A program made the translations under genes and the position numbers. This document shows positions 7,828 through 28,855 of a stretch of DNA of 34,299 bases, piece after piece. Numbering within the stretch: the first letter of the stretch is position 1; every line of letters starts with the position of its first letter. The notes under the pieces were generated by a model, which had not been told where the DNA came from, did no database searches, and worked only from the letters and a program-made list of their open reading frames with translations. The DNA comes from Henriciella sp. (lineage in GTDB: Bacteria > Pseudomonadota > Alphaproteobacteria > Caulobacterales > Hyphomonadaceae): positions 1-34,299 of the forward strand of contig JABSQA010000020.1 of the NCBI GenBank assembly GCA_013213825.1, in the 5' to 3' direction.

Positions 7828-8397
7828 TCACGGCGCGACAGGTCGCAAGTCTGGATTCTTCTGGAAGTACCGTTCCGCATAGAACAATCCGGTCGCATGA
7901 AGCGCATGTTGCACTTCTAGAGTTTCATAGGCCAGGAAGTCTGCATAGGGCATTTCCAGGACTTCAATCTGTTCATTCGGATCAAGCGCCTGACCCCGGC
8001 TGGGGGTGCAGCCGAGCGCCAAGTAGAAGTGTAGTTCATCGTCCTGGATCGCGGGATTAGGATAGCAGGTTGCGATGCGGTGATAGGCGCGGGCGGCATA
8101 GCCGGTTTCTTCTGCCAGTTCGCGCGCGGCGACCCTTTCCCAGTCCGTCTCGCCTGGGTCAGAGACACCGCCGGGGAGGCCAATCATGACCTTTCCAGCC
8201 GCGTGGCGATATTCGCGGACAAGGACGATATTGCCAGTGTTTGTCACCGGAATGATCGTCACCCAAGGCGTTTGCTGGATGACATGATATGTCGGCACAA
8301 TATGCCCATCCTCGCGCTCACAGCGATCCGTGCGAATGCCGAGATATTGGTCGCGAAAGGTCTGAACACTTTCGAGGATTTTCCAGGGTTTGATCAT
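7828..8397 (-). CDS. Nudix hydrolase (ADP-ribose pyrophosphatase-like), paralogue A
   Basis: A 189-residue Nudix enzyme, probably cleaving a nucleoside-diphosphate-linked compound such as ADP-ribose or a nucleotide sugar. The Nudix box is at about residues 80-104 (GGVSDPGETDWERV then AARELAEETGY). The REL-x-EE metal-binding core is intact. The spacing from the leading glycine to the REL is one residue longer than the canonical GX5EX7REUXEEXGU. The VREYRHAAGK text upstream of the box is typical of ADP-sugar pyrophosphatases. Its ATG overlaps the stop of paralogue B by 4 bp (ATGA). It shares the N-terminus MIKPWKIL with B, so the pair is a tandem duplication. Confidence 0.9.
   Translation of the reverse strand: MIKPWKILESVQTFRDQYLGIRTDRCEREDGHIVPTYHVIQQTPWVTIIPVTNTGNIVLVREYRHAAGKVMIGLPGGVSDPGETDWERVAARELAEETGYAARAYHRIATCYPNPAIQDDELHFYLALGCTPSRGQALDPNEQIEVLEMPYADFLAYETLEVQHALHATGLFYAERYFQKNPDLRPVAP
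8374..8396. repeat. 23-nt exact repeat, copy 1 (start of Nudix paralogue A)
   Basis: These 23 bases are identical to 8934-8956 and cover codons for the first eight residues (MIKPWKIL) of Nudix paralogue A. The paralogues otherwise differ at many positions, so this is a conserved remnant of the tandem duplication, or has been kept by conversion or by translation-initiation constraint. Confidence 0.9.
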
Positions 8398-8957
8398 ATT
8401 GGACGTTTTTCCGGATGGGTGGAGAAATAGCGCTCTACAAAGAATAATGCTGCCGCATGGTGGGTCTGTTTAGGCCCGTCAAAATCGTATGAAAGGAACT
8501 CGCTATACGGCATGAGTATAGGTTCTATGTCTTCATTTGCATCGAGTTTCTGTATGCCAGTTTGAGTCGCCCCAAGGGCTAGAAAATAGCTGATTTGATT
8601 GTTCTGATTGGCCCAATTTGCATAGGCGCGACCGACAGGAATCAACTCGCGCGCACGGTATCCAGTCTCTTCTTCTAGTTCGCGGTGAGCGGCCGCAAGT
8701 GTATCTTCGTCTTCGGCTTCCTGAATACCGCCGACAAGACCCAGTGTGACTTGATCCGCACCGACGCGATATTCATGGATGGCAACAACGTCTCCTTCAT
8801 CTGTCAGAGCGCAAATGCAAACCCACTCGCTGCTTTCAATGATGTGAAAGGGCTCGACCACAATATCGTTTGGGCGTTTCAAGCGATAAGACCGAATGGT
8901 CAGCCATTGATCACGATATGTCAGCGCACTGGAGAGGATTTTCCAGGGTTTGATCAC
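8394..8957 (-). CDS. Nudix hydrolase, paralogue B
   Basis: A 187-residue paralogue of the gene at 7828-8397, similar along its whole length (same opening MIKPWKIL, same RDQWLTIR/RDQYLGIR, same LALG and ERYF blocks). Its Nudix box reads GGIQEAEDEDTL then AAAHRELEEETGY. As in paralogue A, it has one extra residue between the leading glycine and REL, and the first acidic position is E-D-E-D rather than P-G-E. It probably acts on a related nucleotide substrate in the cytoplasm. The start overlaps the stop of the peptidase gene by 4 bp (ATGA), which suggests translational coupling. Confidence 0.9.
   Translation of the reverse strand: MIKPWKILSSALTYRDQWLTIRSYRLKRPNDIVVEPFHIIESSEWVCICALTDEGDVVAIHEYRVGADQVTLGLVGGIQEAEDEDTLAAAHRELEEETGYRARELIPVGRAYANWANQNNQISYFLALGATQTGIQKLDANEDIEPILMPYSEFLSYDFDGPKQTHHAAALFFVERYFSTHPEKRPI
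8934..8956. repeat. 23-nt exact repeat, copy 2 (start of Nudix paralogue B)
   Basis: This is the second copy of the 23-nt repeat, 560 bp from the first and at the same position relative to the start codon of paralogue B. Confidence 0.9.
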
Positions 8958-11542
8958 TCAACTGGCGCCTTCAAATGACGATCCAGGAAAGTCATCCGCG
9001 ACTTCATCAGATGCGTCCCTAAAGCCTGGCCGCGAATGCCATGCCTTTGGCCAGGATAGGTCATCAAGTCAAAGATTATGCCGCGCTGCTGCATCTCCGC
9101 CATGAGGCGGGTGGAATTGTCGAATGTGACATTGTCATCGGCCATGCCGTGAATGAGCAACAGGTTTGGCAGCTCTGTCTCGAGGCGCTCGAGATGGTAG
9201 AAGACTGAGGATTTGTCATAGCCGTCCGGATTGTCCTGCGGCGTGTCCATATAGCGTTCGGTGTAGAATGTGTCGTAAAGAGACCAATCCGTGACGGGAG
9301 CGCCGGCAACCGCTGCTGCAAACGTATCCTCTGGCGCCTGCAAGATGGTCATCATCACCATATAGCCGCCATAGGACCAGCCTTGAATGCCGACCCGGTC
9401 GCCATCGATGAAGGGTTGCGATTTCAGCCAGTCCACGCCCACCAAAAGATCGCGCACTTCGGGTCCGCCTGTCTGGCGATAGATCACGTCTTCGAACCGC
9501 TTGCCACGATTGGCCATGCCACGATTGTCGAGCCGGAAGACCACATAGCCTTGGCGTGAGTAGAACTGATCCGACAGACGTTCCCAATTGCGATTGACGG
9601 TTTGCGCGTGCGGTCCGCCATAGGTTTCGACCAAAGCTGGATAGGTTTTGTTTGGGTCGAAATCTGAAGGGAGCTGAATGGAGTAATAGAGCGTCTGACC
9701 ATCTTCCGCCGTCAGCGTGCCATATTCGGGCACCGTATGGTCCGCGAGATAGGGCGCATAAGGATGCGTCTCGTCGAGCCTGTTCTCTTCGATCCAAGTG
9801 ATCAGCGACCCATCATCGGTGCGATAGAGTCCGGTTTGAGCTGGTTGGGTGGGTGAAGACGAGGTGCCAACAAAGGACTGGCCATCGGGGGCCATGGTGA
9901 TGGACCAAGATTTTCCAGGTTCGGTCATCAAAACGGGGTCATAGGACTCGCCCTCTTCCCCCGCGCTGTGGCGATAGAGGTGCCGTTCCAGCGGCGTATC
10001 CATATAGCCTGTAAAGAAGAAATGGCTGCCATCGCCCGCGACATAATTCAACTGGTCAATCGCCCAGTCGCCTTCAGTCAGCGCGCGCTTATTTTGCTCT
10101 GTGTCATTCGCGCCCGAAAACTCAGACACATAAACATGCCGATAGCCGCTCTCTTCGGAGGAATAGAAGACGCGCTCGCCACGTTGGCTTCGATCGAAAG
10201 ACAGATTGGCGAATTGGTCTTGCGTTTCGACGCGCCAGGCGTTTTGAGGCGCACCATTTGACGATGCGGCCATGTCAAAGGCCACTTCTTCAATATGTTT
10301 CTGCTTGCGGTCGACCCTTTGGACGAAGACGTGATTGTTCGCCCAGTTTACCCGGGTCAGATATTGATCTGTGGCCGGGCCCCAATCGTCGCGGCGCCAA
10401 TTCACTTCGGTCACCTCACCGGTGTCCATATCGCGCACGAAAAGGTCGACAATGGCGTTCGGACGACCGGCCCGGGGATAACGCTGATTGATGACGGTGA
10501 CGTCTTCGGCGGCAATGTCGAAACGTGGGATGATATCGACCGTGCTTTCATCCACTTTGGTGTAAGCGAGATAACGATCATCGCCGCTCCACCAATAGCC
10601 GGTATAGCGGCTCATCTCTTCTTGAGCGACGAATTCAGCGACCCCATAGGCGATCGCATTGTCCGGATCCGCCAATGGGGTCAGGCGGGATTCTTCACTC
10701 GTTTTGACATCAATCGCATAGACGGCGCCATCGCGAATAAAGCTAACATAGCGGCCACCTGGGGAGACTTTGGCATCATATTCGAAGGCGTCGGTGGCCG
10801 TCAGTTGTTGGACTTTTACGGCTCCTGCGGTCGGTTGATTTGTTCCGACCGCAACATCTGAAAACCGAATGGCCTGCCCATCTTTGACCGATATCACCAC
10901 GTTGCGCAGGTCTGCAGGATCGATATTCGTGGTTGAAGGTCTTGGTATCTCACCACCGCGGGGAAGGCGTTGCACTTCTTCGCCAAAAAAGGATTCCCGG
11001 ATTGCCCGAGATACATCCGCTAGAGATACACCATATTGATCAGCCTCGGGCTTCAGTTGAAAGCTAAACTTTGTATCTGACCCTGCAGCCGGAACGGTGA
11101 CCAGATGCAAATCGCCACCAATGGGCACCAAGATCGTGCTGGCTGTGCCCCAATCATAAGAAACAATGCCTTTGCGGCCGGCGATACGTTTGCGCTCACG
11201 CAGGGCTTTTTCTTCCTCGGACAGCTCAACTTCTTCGGGTTCGAGCAGTTTCGAATCGACCAGCATGGATTGCTCGCCAGTCGCGACATGGAATTGCCAG
11301 AGATCATATCGGTTGGCTTCATCTTCACGGGCTTTCAAAAAGGTCACCCGGGTGCCATCTGGGCTGTACTGAACACCACTCGGCGTTGGGCCAGACAGGC
11401 TGGGGCTGGCAAAGAGGCGTTCAATCGTGAGCGGTTTCTGATCGACCATGGTTTGAGAGTCTTCCGAGAGAGGCTGGGCGAGCGTCGTTGCGCAAGCGGA
11501 AAGCAAAAGCGCAGCGGCGGGCATGAATAGCGTTTTCAACAT
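8954..11542 (-). CDS. Dipeptidyl peptidase IV family (S9B) lipoprotein with RND-like insert
   Basis: An 862-residue serine peptidase releasing N-terminal dipeptides, probably on the cell surface or in the periplasm. I choose ATG 11542 because it gives a lipoprotein signal (MLKTLFMPAAALLLSAC); the frame is open to GTG 11632, but that extension (LTKPALRASPAC) looks non-coding. No Shine-Dalgarno is seen before 11542. The beta-propeller includes the double-Glu motif AQEEMSRYTGYWWS (E308-E309), which binds the substrate amino terminus. The hydrolase domain has GWSYGGY (Ser723), GMADDNV (Asp802) and QRHG (His834). Residues of about 155-240 do not belong to the family and resemble an AcrB-type pump. 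It heads the hydrolase operon, with ATGA coupling to Nudix paralogue B. Confidence 0.93.
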   Translation of the reverse strand: MLKTLFMPAAALLLSACATTLAQPLSEDSQTMVDQKPLTIERLFASPSLSGPTPSGVQYSPDGTRVTFLKAREDEANRYDLWQFHVATGEQSMLVDSKLLEPEEVELSEEEKALRERKRIAGRKGIVSYDWGTASTILVPIGGDLHLVTVPAAGSDTKFSFQLKPEADQYGVSLADVSRAIRESFFGEEVQRLPRGGEIPRPSTTNIDPADLRNVVISVKDGQAIRFSDVAVGTNQPTAGAVKVQQLTATDAFEYDAKVSPGGRYVSFIRDGAVYAIDVKTSEESRLTPLADPDNAIAYGVAEFVAQEEMSRYTGYWWSGDDRYLAYTKVDESTVDIIPRFDIAAEDVTVINQRYPRAGRPNAIVDLFVRDMDTGEVTEVNWRRDDWGPATDQYLTRVNWANNHVFVQRVDRKQKHIEEVAFDMAASSNGAPQNAWRVETQDQFANLSFDRSQRGERVFYSSEESGYRHVYVSEFSGANDTEQNKRALTEGDWAIDQLNYVAGDGSHFFFTGYMDTPLERHLYRHSAGEEGESYDPVLMTEPGKSWSITMAPDGQSFVGTSSSPTQPAQTGLYRTDDGSLITWIEENRLDETHPYAPYLADHTVPEYGTLTAEDGQTLYYSIQLPSDFDPNKTYPALVETYGGPHAQTVNRNWERLSDQFYSRQGYVVFRLDNRGMANRGKRFEDVIYRQTGGPEVRDLLVGVDWLKSQPFIDGDRVGIQGWSYGGYMVMMTILQAPEDTFAAAVAGAPVTDWSLYDTFYTERYMDTPQDNPDGYDKSSVFYHLERLETELPNLLLIHGMADDNVTFDNSTRLMAEMQQRGIIFDLMTYPGQRHGIRGQALGTHLMKSRMTFLDRHLKAPVE
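10824..11092 (-). other. In-frame RND (AcrB/HAE1)-like segment inside the DPP IV gene
   Basis: Between VTVPAAG and VQQLTATDAFEYDAKVSP, which are adjacent in ordinary S9B peptidases, lie about 86 extra codons. Their translation contains FQLKPEADQYGVSLADVSRA, IRESFFGEEVQRLPRGG, DPADLRNVVI and DGQAIRFSDVA. These match in order the porter/docking subdomain of RND efflux permeases (LxPEAxxxGLTLxDVxRxVRxAFFGEEVQR...ADLxNxxI...DGxxVPFSxVA). The middle stretch (EIPRPSTTNI) does not match, but a neighbouring frame at 10953-10945 reads V-R-Y, as in the RND motif VRYP, hinting at compensating indels. Both ends carry a similar 11-mer (11082-11092 and 10824-10834, 9 of 11 identical) exactly 258 bp apart. 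The family resemblance is recalled, not computed. Confidence 0.7.
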
Positions 11543-11551
11543 GCAAGCAGG

Positions 11552-11579
11552 GCTAGCGCGCAGAGCGGGCTTTGTCAGC
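11552..11579. repeat. 28-bp direct repeat, copy 1 (left edge of GDP-fucose cassette)
   Basis: A perfect 28-bp match to 13932-13959 in the same orientation (starts GCTAGCGCGCAG, ends GGCTTTGTCAGC). It lies 9 bp upstream of the DPP IV start codon. Its 3' part can fold as a short hairpin (GGGCT/AGYCC around TTTGTC). See copy 2 for the interpretation. Confidence 0.95.
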
Positions 11580-11656
11580 ACTAATGTATGATGTTGGCTA
11601 GGTTGCCAGCATTCGCCAAGTCTATTGAGCACATAGCTTCGTAACTGAAATTCGGC

Positions 11657-13975: not shown

Positions 13976-14575
13976 TCAGGTTTCATTCTCTTCCAGCAAG
14001 CTTTCCAGCAATTTCTGGATTTCTGCGTTTGAGTCGCCGCCGCCAAAGCTCATGCCACCGGAAGAATAAGTGGTGCCATAGGTTTTGACCAAGGTGACCG
14101 TCTGCGCCAGAGCAGAGACAAAATCATCTTGAGTCAATGAGGTCAGCGGGTGGATGAAAGTGGCCCAAAGCTGGCCTTGCGCAATCGCATAGCGGGCGTC
14201 CAATGCGGTGTCGAAATTGGCTTGCATCAGGCGTCTCAATTGGGGACCTGACAGACCATCGCTGGCGCCGATTTGCGAGAATAGCCGCATGCGATCTGCG
14301 TTAATGTCGAATACGAGCGTGACCACCGTTTCATCAATCGTGAAGGTCGCGCCATTGCCCGTGAACTGCATATCTTCGTCAATGGTTGCGACAATGCCCA
14401 GAAGCGCTGAAGCCGCTTGAACCTTGGGCGGAACTTCAGTGTTTTCATCTGGAGTCTCAGGGGCAGCGTCTTCGCTGGGTGTCTCGTCAGCGAGTTGAGC
14501 TTGGGCGGGCATGTTAAGCGCCGAGGCCCAAACTAATCCCAATAGAAGGGCGGCGGATATCGTGACAGTGCGCAT
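13976..14575 (-). CDS. Secreted hypothetical protein, possibly YbjN/CesT-like fold
   Basis: A 199-residue protein. I choose ATG 14575, with AGGAG about 10 nt upstream and a clear signal peptide (MRTVTISAALLLGLVWASAL, cleavage near PAQA). The open frame extending to 14830 would bury that signal. After an acidic Pro/Glu/Asp linker (about residues 30-50), a domain of about 120 residues reads FTIDETVVTLVFDINADRMR, LSGPQLRRLMQANFDTALDA, QGQLWATFIHPLTSLTQDDF. It resembles the type III chaperone-like YbjN superfamily in pattern, so a periplasmic protein-binding role is a guess. The C-terminus is Gly/Ser-rich (SSGGMSFGGGDS). The gene is divergent from the metallo-hydrolase at 14736. Confidence 0.72.
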   Translation of the reverse strand: MRTVTISAALLLGLVWASALNMPAQAQLADETPSEDAAPETPDENTEVPPKVQAASALLGIVATIDEDMQFTGNGATFTIDETVVTLVFDINADRMRLFSQIGASDGLSGPQLRRLMQANFDTALDARYAIAQGQLWATFIHPLTSLTQDDFVSALAQTVTLVKTYGTTYSSGGMSFGGGDSNAEIQKLLESLLEENET

Positions 14576-14686
14576 GACTGAAAAGCTCCTGGATTGGTCC
14601 CAAAATCCTATGAGTCCTTCCGCGGAGAACAAGACGCATTGGCCCCACGGGCGATCATCTCTTTGTGATCCTGACGAATAAATGAA

Positions 14687-14715
14687 TTGATTATTGTTCA
14701 ATTTACGGCTAGGGT
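14687..14715 (+). promoter_or_regulatory. Candidate promoter for the metallo-hydrolase gene
   Basis: TTGATT (14687-14692), a 17-bp spacer and TAGGGT (14710-14715) form a plausible sigma-70 pair. The -10 lies in GGCTAGGGT, which resembles the GCTANAWC type of Caulobacterales housekeeping promoters. Transcription would begin about 14 bp before the ATG at 14736, leaving just the GGGAGA ribosome binding site in the leader. Confidence 0.4.
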
Positions 14716-14735
14716 AAGAACGTTGGGAGACGAAA

Positions 14736-15671
14736 ATGTTGAAATGGATTTTGCGCATTGGCGGCGGACTCGTGGTCGTGATTGGCCTCTTATTCTGGTG
14801 GTTGCTGTTAAGCAGCTCGAATGCCTCCAAAACCGCGCCGGGCGTGTTCGATCTCGCCGACTGGCGCGAAAAAGCTCAGGCGCCGATTTCCTCCTTACCG
14901 ATTGGAATTGAAGTGATCGAAGTCGGTCGCGACACAGCCCCGCCCTTCGCGGCGCAAGCTGGTCGTTTCGGGGCGCCCGTTGAGATGTCCTATAATGCGG
15001 TTGAAATCCAATACCCCAATTCCAGCATCATTATTGGCGGCGCCATCGATCGCCCGACGGCGGAAGAGATGCGCTTAACCGCTCAGAATTGGCGGTTCGA
15101 TGATGGGGCATATCAAACTCTGACCGAGCGGATGTTGAGCGCCAATCAAGTCCTGATGACCCACGAGCATCTCGACCATGTCATGGCGATTGTTCGGCAC
15201 CCAGAGCCTGCCATCTTGGCGCCTAATCTCGTTCTGAACGCGCCTCAGATTGACGCCTTACCCTTGTTCGCATTGGACGCTCTCGATCCAGCTCTGAGTC
15301 AAATAGTCCCCGAACTTACCGGCGAGACGCAGCCGATCGCTCCCGGTGTCGTCATCGTGCCCGCGGCCGGTCACACGCCTGGCAGTCAAAATGTTTTTAT
15401 CAGCCTGCAGAATGGCGAAGAGATTTTACTCATCGGCGATACGGTTTGGAATATGGGCGCGATAGAGGCGTTGAAGACGCGTCCTGTGCTGACCCAATAT
15501 ATGGTCTTCCGCCCAAATTATGAGGATCGCGCAGCGGTCAAAGATCAAGTCCGCGCCCTGCACGATATCATGGCGGCAAATCCAGACCTATTAGTGCTGG
15601 CGGCACATGACCGGGCTTGGCTCACTCAAGCTGCGGATGCAGGACGGATTTCCTTTCTGCCGGCCAATTAG
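14736..15671 (+). CDS. Metallo-beta-lactamase-fold hydrolase, membrane-anchored
   Basis: A 311-residue protein with an N-terminal membrane anchor (residues 7-26, GGGLVVVIGLLFWWLLL), so the enzyme probably faces the periplasm. The zinc site is intact: THEHLDH gives H143, H145, D147 and H148, AAGHTPGS gives H213, LIGDTVW gives D235 and AAHDRAW gives H291. The family covers lactonases, esterases, phosphodiesterases and others; the substrate cannot be told from sequence. ATG 14736 follows GGGAGA. The stop codon overlaps the stop of the opposing membrane-protein gene (shared TTAG at 15668-15671). Confidence 0.9.
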   Translation: MLKWILRIGGGLVVVIGLLFWWLLLSSSNASKTAPGVFDLADWREKAQAPISSLPIGIEVIEVGRDTAPPFAAQAGRFGAPVEMSYNAVEIQYPNSSIIIGGAIDRPTAEEMRLTAQNWRFDDGAYQTLTERMLSANQVLMTHEHLDHVMAIVRHPEPAILAPNLVLNAPQIDALPLFALDALDPALSQIVPELTGETQPIAPGVVIVPAAGHTPGSQNVFISLQNGEEILLIGDTVWNMGAIEALKTRPVLTQYMVFRPNYEDRAAVKDQVRALHDIMAANPDLLVLAAHDRAWLTQAADAGRISFLPAN

Positions 15672-26683: not shown

Positions 26684-28855
26684 ATGATGTCTATCAAACC
26701 AGTTATTTTGTGTGGAGGCTCCGGCACCAGGCTATGGCCTCTATCTACGCCAGAGGCGCCAAAACAGTTTCAGACGCTCGTTGGTAACGAGACAATGATT
26801 CAGCAGACTGTTCGTCGAGTTGTTTCAAAAGATCGTGATGGGCCGATTTTCGAACGCCTTTTGGTAGTCGGTTCTGGGCGCCACGAATCCCTGCTCGCAA
26901 AGCAACTTCCAGGCGCAGATCTGATTCTAGAGCCATTTGGAAGAAATTCCGCGCCAGCTGTGGCCGCCGCCTGTCTCGCAGCTTCAGAAAATGAGTTACT
27001 TCTCATTATGCCGGCAGACCATCACATCGAGAAACCAGAACAATTTCTTAGAGCCGTTCAAATTGGTCAAACGGCGGCGGAGGGCGGATCAATCGTGACC
27101 TTCGGGATTAAACCTACCCATGCTGCGACGGGGTATGGTTACATAGAAAGTGATGGTGATGCAGAAAACGCTGCAATCGGACGAGTTAAGAGGTTTGTCG
27201 AGAAGCCGCCAAAAAAAGATGCAGAAGTCTATTTAGAAAAGGGAAACTACTCCTGGAACTCCGGGATCTTTTTGTTCAAAGTTTCGGTCATGCTTGACGC
27301 ACTCCGCAACTACTTACCTGATATGTTATCGAAAATGCAGAGCATGTTGCCCGACAATCAAGATGGTCGGTGGGAATTGGATCCCGAGATATTTCGGAAT
27401 GTTGAAGACATATCAATTGACTATGCTGTGATGGAGCGCGAATCCAACATAATGGTCGTGCCAGTTAATATGGGGTGGAGTGATCTTGGGGGGTATGCCG
27501 CTCTTTGGGATTTGCTTTCAGATCCATCACGCACGACCGTCGCGTCAGGGCCCGTTTTGGTAGACGATTCGGTCAATGTTTTTGCTCGGTCCGATGGTCC
27601 AATAGTTGCGGCTTCAGGTTTGAAAGATGTCTCGATCATCGCAAAGAACAATTTGATTATGGTGGCACCCCTGAGTGATCCCAACGCAGCCAAATCGCTG
27701 GGCAAGATGGTTCAGTCGCTAGGAGCCGCGATCAATATTTCAGATGAGAGCTCTCGAGTTGTGCGCGATCTTTTGTCTGTGTCCTTCAAAAAGTGGGTTG
27801 AGTGCGCATGGGATGACCAAAATGGTGGCTTCGTAGAGTGCTTGTTTATGAATGGCCAACCGGACAAAACCTCTGACCGTCGTGTTCGTGTTCAAGCGCG
27901 CCAGATTTTTAGCTTCGCTGAGTCGATTCGTCTTGGCTTGATAGACTCAGCTAAACCAATGACGCTCATCGAGAAAGGACTGGACTTTCTTGACACCACG
28001 TGCCGAAATCCGGAGGGTGGATGGCACCATCGGCTTTCGGCGACAGGCGACGCAATAGATAAAACGCGTGATTTGTACGATCACGCTTTTATAATATTAG
28101 CCGGTGCCACAGCGTACGCAGCGACCCATCAAGAACGCGCCCTGCGGATTGCGATTGAGTCAATAGATTACATTGATGCGAATTTAAAAGATCGTGATGG
28201 AGGCGGTTACGTCGATTCTGTTACGGATCAAACGGTTCGGCGTTCTAATCCTCACATGCATTTGCTCGAGGCGTTTTTGGCCATGTACCAGGCGACCCAG
28301 GATAAGCAGTACCTCGATCGAGCGACCGAAATTGTCCTACTCTTTGAAACACGCTTCTTTGATTCAAAATCAAATATATTGAGGGAATACTTTGATGGCA
28401 ATTGGGCCCCTGCCGATGGCGCAGAAGGCGAGCTATTTGAGCCCGGACATCACTATGAGTGGGCAACGCTTCTCGCCATGTATGACGAAGTGGCCGCCCG
28501 CGATACTCGGAGTTGGCGAACTCGACTGATTAGAACCGCGGATCAATATGGACGCTCTTCGACAACCGGTTTTGCCCACAACTCGGTGCTATTCGACGGA
28601 ACGCTGCTGGATTCAAACTGTCGTATTTGGCATCAGTTGGAAATGTTTCGTGCGAGGCTATTTCATCCAGATACAGATGCACCGGGCGCAACTGATAGAG
28701 TATTGGCCGACTTGATCGAAGGTTATTTCAAACCCGCGATAGAAGGCACTTGGATTGATGAGGTTGACTCAGAAGGAACAGTTTTGTCAGATCGAGTGCC
28801 AGCAAGCATTCTATACCACTTGGTGACTGCGTTCTCGCCCGCGTTACGAAAATAA
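26684..28855 (+). CDS. Fusion of mannose-1-phosphate guanylyltransferase and AGE-family sugar isomerase
   Basis: 723 residues in two domains. Residues of about 1-350 are a GDP-mannose pyrophosphorylase: ILCGGSGTRLWPLSTPEAPK loop, LLIMPADHHI, ATGYGYIE, RFVEKPPKKDAEVYL, YSWNSGIFLFK and MGWSDLGGYAAL. Residues of about 365-720 are an N-acylglucosamine 2-epimerase (AGE)-type (alpha/alpha)6 barrel with HMHLLEAFLAMY, EPGHHYEWATLL and SNCRIWHQLEM. The epimerase half probably acts as a phosphomannose isomerase, so the protein may carry out fructose-6-P to mannose-6-P and mannose-1-P to GDP-mannose; phosphomannomutase is not in the window. The cytoplasmic product would feed gmd. The start is ATG 26684 or 26687. 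Confidence 0.9.
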   Translation: MMSIKPVILCGGSGTRLWPLSTPEAPKQFQTLVGNETMIQQTVRRVVSKDRDGPIFERLLVVGSGRHESLLAKQLPGADLILEPFGRNSAPAVAAACLAASENELLLIMPADHHIEKPEQFLRAVQIGQTAAEGGSIVTFGIKPTHAATGYGYIESDGDAENAAIGRVKRFVEKPPKKDAEVYLEKGNYSWNSGIFLFKVSVMLDALRNYLPDMLSKMQSMLPDNQDGRWELDPEIFRNVEDISIDYAVMERESNIMVVPVNMGWSDLGGYAALWDLLSDPSRTTVASGPVLVDDSVNVFARSDGPIVAASGLKDVSIIAKNNLIMVAPLSDPNAAKSLGKMVQSLGAAINISDESSRVVRDLLSVSFKKWVECAWDDQNGGFVECLFMNGQPDKTSDRRVRVQARQIFSFAESIRLGLIDSAKPMTLIEKGLDFLDTTCRNPEGGWHHRLSATGDAIDKTRDLYDHAFIILAGATAYAATHQERALRIAIESIDYIDANLKDRDGGGYVDSVTDQTVRRSNPHMHLLEAFLAMYQATQDKQYLDRATEIVLLFETRFFDSKSNILREYFDGNWAPADGAEGELFEPGHHYEWATLLAMYDEVAARDTRSWRTRLIRTADQYGRSSTTGFAHNSVLFDGTLLDSNCRIWHQLEMFRARLFHPDTDAPGATDRVLADLIEGYFKPAIEGTWIDEVDSEGTVLSDRVPASILYHLVTAFSPALRK

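Follow-up and report, generated by a model that had tools for sequence, protein, structure and literature searches.

The 34,299-nucleotide stretch of Henriciella sp. DNA analyzed here (the window; contig JABSQA010000020.1, positions 1 to 34,299, assembly GCA_013213825.1) encodes an S9B dipeptidyl peptidase IV (DPP IV) whose propeller is interrupted by 86 codons resembling part of an RND efflux pump. We consider it likely that a docking piece of an HAE1-type RND pump was captured by the peptidase gene in frame, as a one-off event, and has been tolerated as a flexible lobe. According to this scenario, a piece of the PC2/docking part in the second periplasmic loop of an RND protein would have entered, once and in its own reading frame, a propeller hairpin of the DPP IV of one Henriciella-like lineage, most likely by illegitimate recombination, and would since have been carried along as a tolerated passenger. 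All coordinates are window positions, and peptidase and insert are both encoded on the minus strand.

The inserted segment (10835..11092, ends approximate) comprises 86 codons and corresponds to a net gain of 87 residues over the turn of near relatives, in which VTL and QLT are separated by eight residues, compared to 95 residues between VTV and QLT in the window. The initial annotation had claimed that about 86 codons part propeller pieces that are contiguous in ordinary S9B peptidases, a claim that a segment common to S9B orthologs would have contradicted. In an alignment of 109 ortholog rows (29 + 80, species partly overlapping), of which all except L054 span the junction, none of the 108 spanning rows has more than five residues in the insert columns, which confirms the interruption and its absence from the relatives examined. 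The peptides named in that annotation are present within the open reading frame (ORF) in the order given, among them FQLKPEAD (11039-11062), GEEVQRLP (10961-10984), IDPADL (10907-10924), KDGQ (10874-10885), and SDVA (10850-10861). At E ≤ 1e-60, 23 of the 24 other genomes of the genus yielded a DPP IV match, with none in G021, and those same-genus matches that reach the site stop at residues 181-188 or start at 269-274, among the matches listed. Around the junction, some genus members are identical to named records (L055 and L069, Henriciella aquimarina; L039 and L065, Henriciella sp.), so that the host is probably a Henriciella-like bacterium of the Hyphomonadaceae. Searches with the insert itself covered genus (29 genomes, E ≤ 0.01), class (385 genomes, 1e-8), phylum (398 genomes, 1e-7), and order samples (398 genomes, 1e-9); among the matches listed, it was found within a DPP IV only in its own genome.

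The host ORF (8954..11632) encodes 892 amino acids when counted from the first GTG; translation may in fact start at residue 31, with the ATG at 11540-11542. An LLSACA motif at 11489..11506 is what we take to be a lipobox-like signal. Pfam as well as model and fold comparison identified an N-terminal DPPIV_N propeller and a C-terminal Peptidase_S9 domain. The catalytic residues are intact: the double-Glu motif E338-E339 (10616..10621), Ser753 within GWSYGG (9374..9376), Asp832 within ADDNV (9137..9139), and His864 within RHGIRG (9041..9043) all occupy invariant columns of a 48-row peptidase alignment (its numbers are one lower than the residue numbers used here), as is characteristic of S9B enzymes. 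The roles of the Ser-Asp-His triad and of the double-Glu motif follow an excerpt of PMC5807507, and Asp832 was picked as the putative catalytic Asp from Asp689 and Asn691 of PmDAP IV in that excerpt together with the alignment. Without its insert, the peptidase groups with its genus relatives in a phylogenetic tree. Its branch measures 0.171 versus 0.221 for the sister sequence L034, a pairing with a support of only 0.63, and the non-synonymous distances (dN) to L034-L039 are 0.19-0.22, with synonymous distances (dS) saturated. No decay is evident in the host gene, whose evolutionary rate is unremarkable. An antisense ORF of 188 amino acids (10295-10861, plus strand) covers part of the peptidase gene together with the end of the insert and has probably arisen as a by-product of coding on the opposite strand.

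The insert aligns collinearly with the PC2/docking segment of HAE1-type RND pumps, with recognizable homology over roughly 70-75 of the 86 codons. The best tblastn match to an RND gene had an E value of 1.5e-15 at 44% (order sample, among the matches listed), and another reached 1.4e-14 at 46%. Judged from sequence, RND ancestry is strongly supported for the first half of the insert and moderately for the second. The first half (10949..11062; FQLKPEAD...GEEVQRLPRGGE) scored 138 against RND proteins, whereas the best of 300 shuffles scored 56; it matches an RND gene of genome G001 at the DNA level (71% over 122 nt, E 7.2e-11) and keeps 12 of the 13 RND columns with at least 90% conservation. 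The homology of the second half (10850..10948; IPRPSTTNIDPADLRNVVISVKDGQAIRFSDVA) is weak but collinear: compared to 38 distinct collinear RND segments, its mean score was reached by none of 2000 shuffles and its maximum score by four, and only 6 of 15 such conserved columns are kept. Where the two halves meet, the alignment to the pumps has a five-residue gap, which falls in the strand following GE (DVRVMVR region). The ACR_tran match of the insert falls on positions 724-822 and covers about 70 residues of the 1021-position model; the insert is thus a fragment only and no working pump, which would be a full-length protein with two transmembrane halves. Collinear similarity and insert-free relatives together support the earlier proposal that a piece of an RND gene was captured within the DPP IV in frame and in the RND reading frame. 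The sequence VRY in a neighboring frame, also pointed out initially, exists as GTG AGA TAC; nothing RND-like follows by eye, and a frameshift reading of these three residues was therefore rejected.

Several observations weigh against an RND capture. RND similarity, the lack of which in profile searches would have spoken against the initial annotation, was found by sequence searches, though the Pfam ACR_tran score of the whole insert (18.5 bits) does not reach the curated cut-off of 28 and no ACR_tran match was obtained with the first half by itself. The second half is weak on its own, as 11 of 300 shuffles score equally well when collinearity is not imposed. Furthermore, the insert was seen in a single genome, which limits the weight of the case, as does the lack of a close donor match (see below). 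Other searches gave RND matches of low significance, with NCBIfam yielding one match to the first RND half at E 0.023 and another at E 0.13, and a PDB sequence search listing an RND pump first (E 0.35) and an unrelated foldase second (E 0.94).

In the predicted structure, the insert is placed between a strand ending at model residue 178 and a strand at residues 272-275. Judging from how PmDAP IV is described, rather than by computation, this site is probably the last hairpin of propeller blade 2, formed by its final two strands. The predicted local distance difference test (pLDDT) score drops below 50 at the insert borders (186-188 and 263-268) and in its middle (218-236), and ten-residue blocks at 191-210 and 241-260 have means of 72-77; this pattern fits a small, semi-independent lobe attached by flexible hinges. 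Because the insertion point is a short turn in the relatives, the peptidase probably kept its fold and its enzyme activity. When the insert was modeled in isolation, the structural neighbors listed were RND pumps, for a model of low confidence. According to an excerpt of PMC8277102, RND pumps have docking and porter subdomains built as modular alpha-beta units, and the captured piece might for this reason fold alone, although the isolated model is of low confidence.

Codon positions reveal how differently the two halves have evolved. Compared to eleven RND genes, the differences in the first half are mostly at third codon positions (second 0.13-0.21, third 0.50-0.76), whereas the second half is highly divergent at each of the three (first 0.52-0.64, second 0.48-0.58, third 0.67-0.88), which is best explained by a loss of most RND constraint in this part. 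Even drift since capture from a C57-type RND gene of the genus had seemed to fit the codon-position figures of the whole insert in a hand reckoning, and was dropped because the halves differ so strongly. The GC content at third codon positions is 0.425 in 80 insert codons versus 0.625 in the remaining gene. The open frame of the insert is no proof of its function, since the peptidase encoded downstream needs the frame to stay open.

These patterns bear on the possibility that the lobe was selected, for instance because a docking-domain-like fold provides a new protein contact such as with an efflux assembly in the same periplasm. The 12 of 13 columns kept by the first half and its third-position differences would agree with selection, as would the expected periplasmic location of both host protein and donor part. 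On the other hand, the second half, with its 6 of 15 columns and strong differences at every codon position, does not share this pattern, and the middle of the insert is of low confidence in both models. Moreover, the insert is one sequence, and the pattern of the first half may reflect RND constraint predating the capture. We therefore regard a selected lobe as unlikely. The more specific idea that the RND docking segment still folds and was kept as a new docking surface toward an efflux assembly or an outer-membrane channel appears quite improbable; if true, a docking module would have passed naturally from a transporter to an enzyme.

It is very improbable that the insert represents one copy of a short mobile element with an RND-like ORF and a capacity for in-frame entry into genes, comparable to Rickettsia palindromic elements (excerpt of PMC10969869). 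The intragenic, in-frame position would suit such an element, and so would the flanking repeat of two 11-mers that match at 9 of 11 positions and start 258 bp apart (CCGGCTGCAGG, 11082..11092, on the left; CCGACCGCAGG, 10824..10834, on the right). This imperfect direct repeat is present as initially annotated, but its interpretation as a short duplication left over from the insertion is unproven, since the match is marginal against shuffled sequences: 82, 107, and 147 of 2000 shuffles equaled it for flanks of 30, 40, and 50 nt, respectively, and 59 of 60 shuffles contained, anywhere in the 381-nt region, an 11-mer pair matching at 9 or more positions. A 14-nt direct repeat (12/14; 10941-10954 and 11069-11082), considered as another boundary, was rejected, with 6 of 60 shuffles equaling it; its inner copy sits where the DNA match to RND genes ends. 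The inverted arms near the insert ends measure 12 nt at 83%, as a raw figure. Furthermore, protein, Pfam-profile, and DNA searches identified no further copy of the insert in its own genome (276 contigs, 93.82% complete), and the occurrence in several unrelated genes that marks Rickettsia palindromic elements or miniature inverted-repeat transposable elements was not observed there. Profile matches in this genome comprised the insert along with six RND genes and a single stretch at E 0.287, and the next best DNA matches were two RND genes. In the genus, class, phylum, and order samples, the other matches listed lie in RND-sized frames or in shorter frames perhaps cut by contig ends. Two of the short frames, G000:C262 and L185 (the only one of the order sample read whole), are RND genes when read, and in one insert search the matches outside RND-sized frames, barring the insert and the truncated G000:C262, had E values of 0.0575 or weaker. 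Thus, the suggestion that a short element enters coding genes is largely refuted for this genome at its given completeness, and the nearest matches listed outside it belong to RND genes.

An assembly artifact, with an RND fragment wrongly joined to the gene, is hardly credible: the genome is in 276 contigs and the insert occurs in no other genome examined, but both junctions are in frame, the genes of the same genome match the insert protein at no more than 44% so that no source of a mis-join was found, and the remaining gene groups with its genus relatives.

For the capture of an RND docking piece, an RND gene is the most likely donor. Among the matches listed for the class, phylum, and order samples, none that spans at least 70 residues exceeds 48%, and the first half alone reached up to 61% over 46 residues (G935 and G781, order sample, among the matches listed). 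Plasmids gave no insert match at E 1e-5. No Ku gene was found at E 0.01 in this genome, which makes a Ku-dependent route unlikely unless such a gene has since disappeared or falls within the portion not assembled.

Directly downstream of the peptidase, two tandem NUDIX genes (7828-8397 and 8394-8957, minus strand) overlap by four bases. Elsewhere in the window, a 723-amino-acid ORF (26684-28855, plus strand) combines a nucleotidyl-transferase domain with a GlcNAc 2-epimerase domain, and an ORF at 13976-14830 (minus strand), which overlaps an ORF on the opposite strand, has a weak CesT-like chaperone match (27.2 bits, cut-off 22).

The peptidase described here is an unusual chimera that most likely arose from a known kind of event, the unusual feature being the combination of an efflux-pump docking fragment with a peptidase propeller. 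Among the titles and abstract openings listed in literature searches, none describes an RND fragment inside a peptidase. It provides a clear natural case of a membrane-transporter sub-domain fragment residing in its own reading frame in an unrelated enzyme, with the empty site preserved in 108 ortholog rows, and indicates that a propeller loop accommodates about 85 residues. It may also serve as a test case for the conversion of gene fragments into parts of bacterial proteins where no mobile element is recognizable, in a genome without detected Ku. Compared to the bacterial S9B-type DAP IV structures (5yp1, 2ecf), the peptidase of the window has 86-87 extra codons in a propeller hairpin. With HAE1-type RND permeases (ACR_tran positions 724-822), the insert shares collinear homology over about 70-75 residues, but it lacks the transmembrane part, has the five-residue gap, and is strongly diverged in its second half. 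Like the Rickettsia palindromic elements, it was inserted in frame into a protein-coding gene; unlike them, going by the excerpt of PMC10969869, it was found in single copy, without an established palindrome, and stems from a known gene family. A further parallel is offered by the short variable segments of likely illegitimate-recombination origin that are common between strains (excerpt of PMC2884548). These are likewise short insertions linked to no known mobile element, and in-frame fusions are mentioned among them. However, they were compared among strains of one species, whereas here the donor family is recognized and the event is visible at the genus level.
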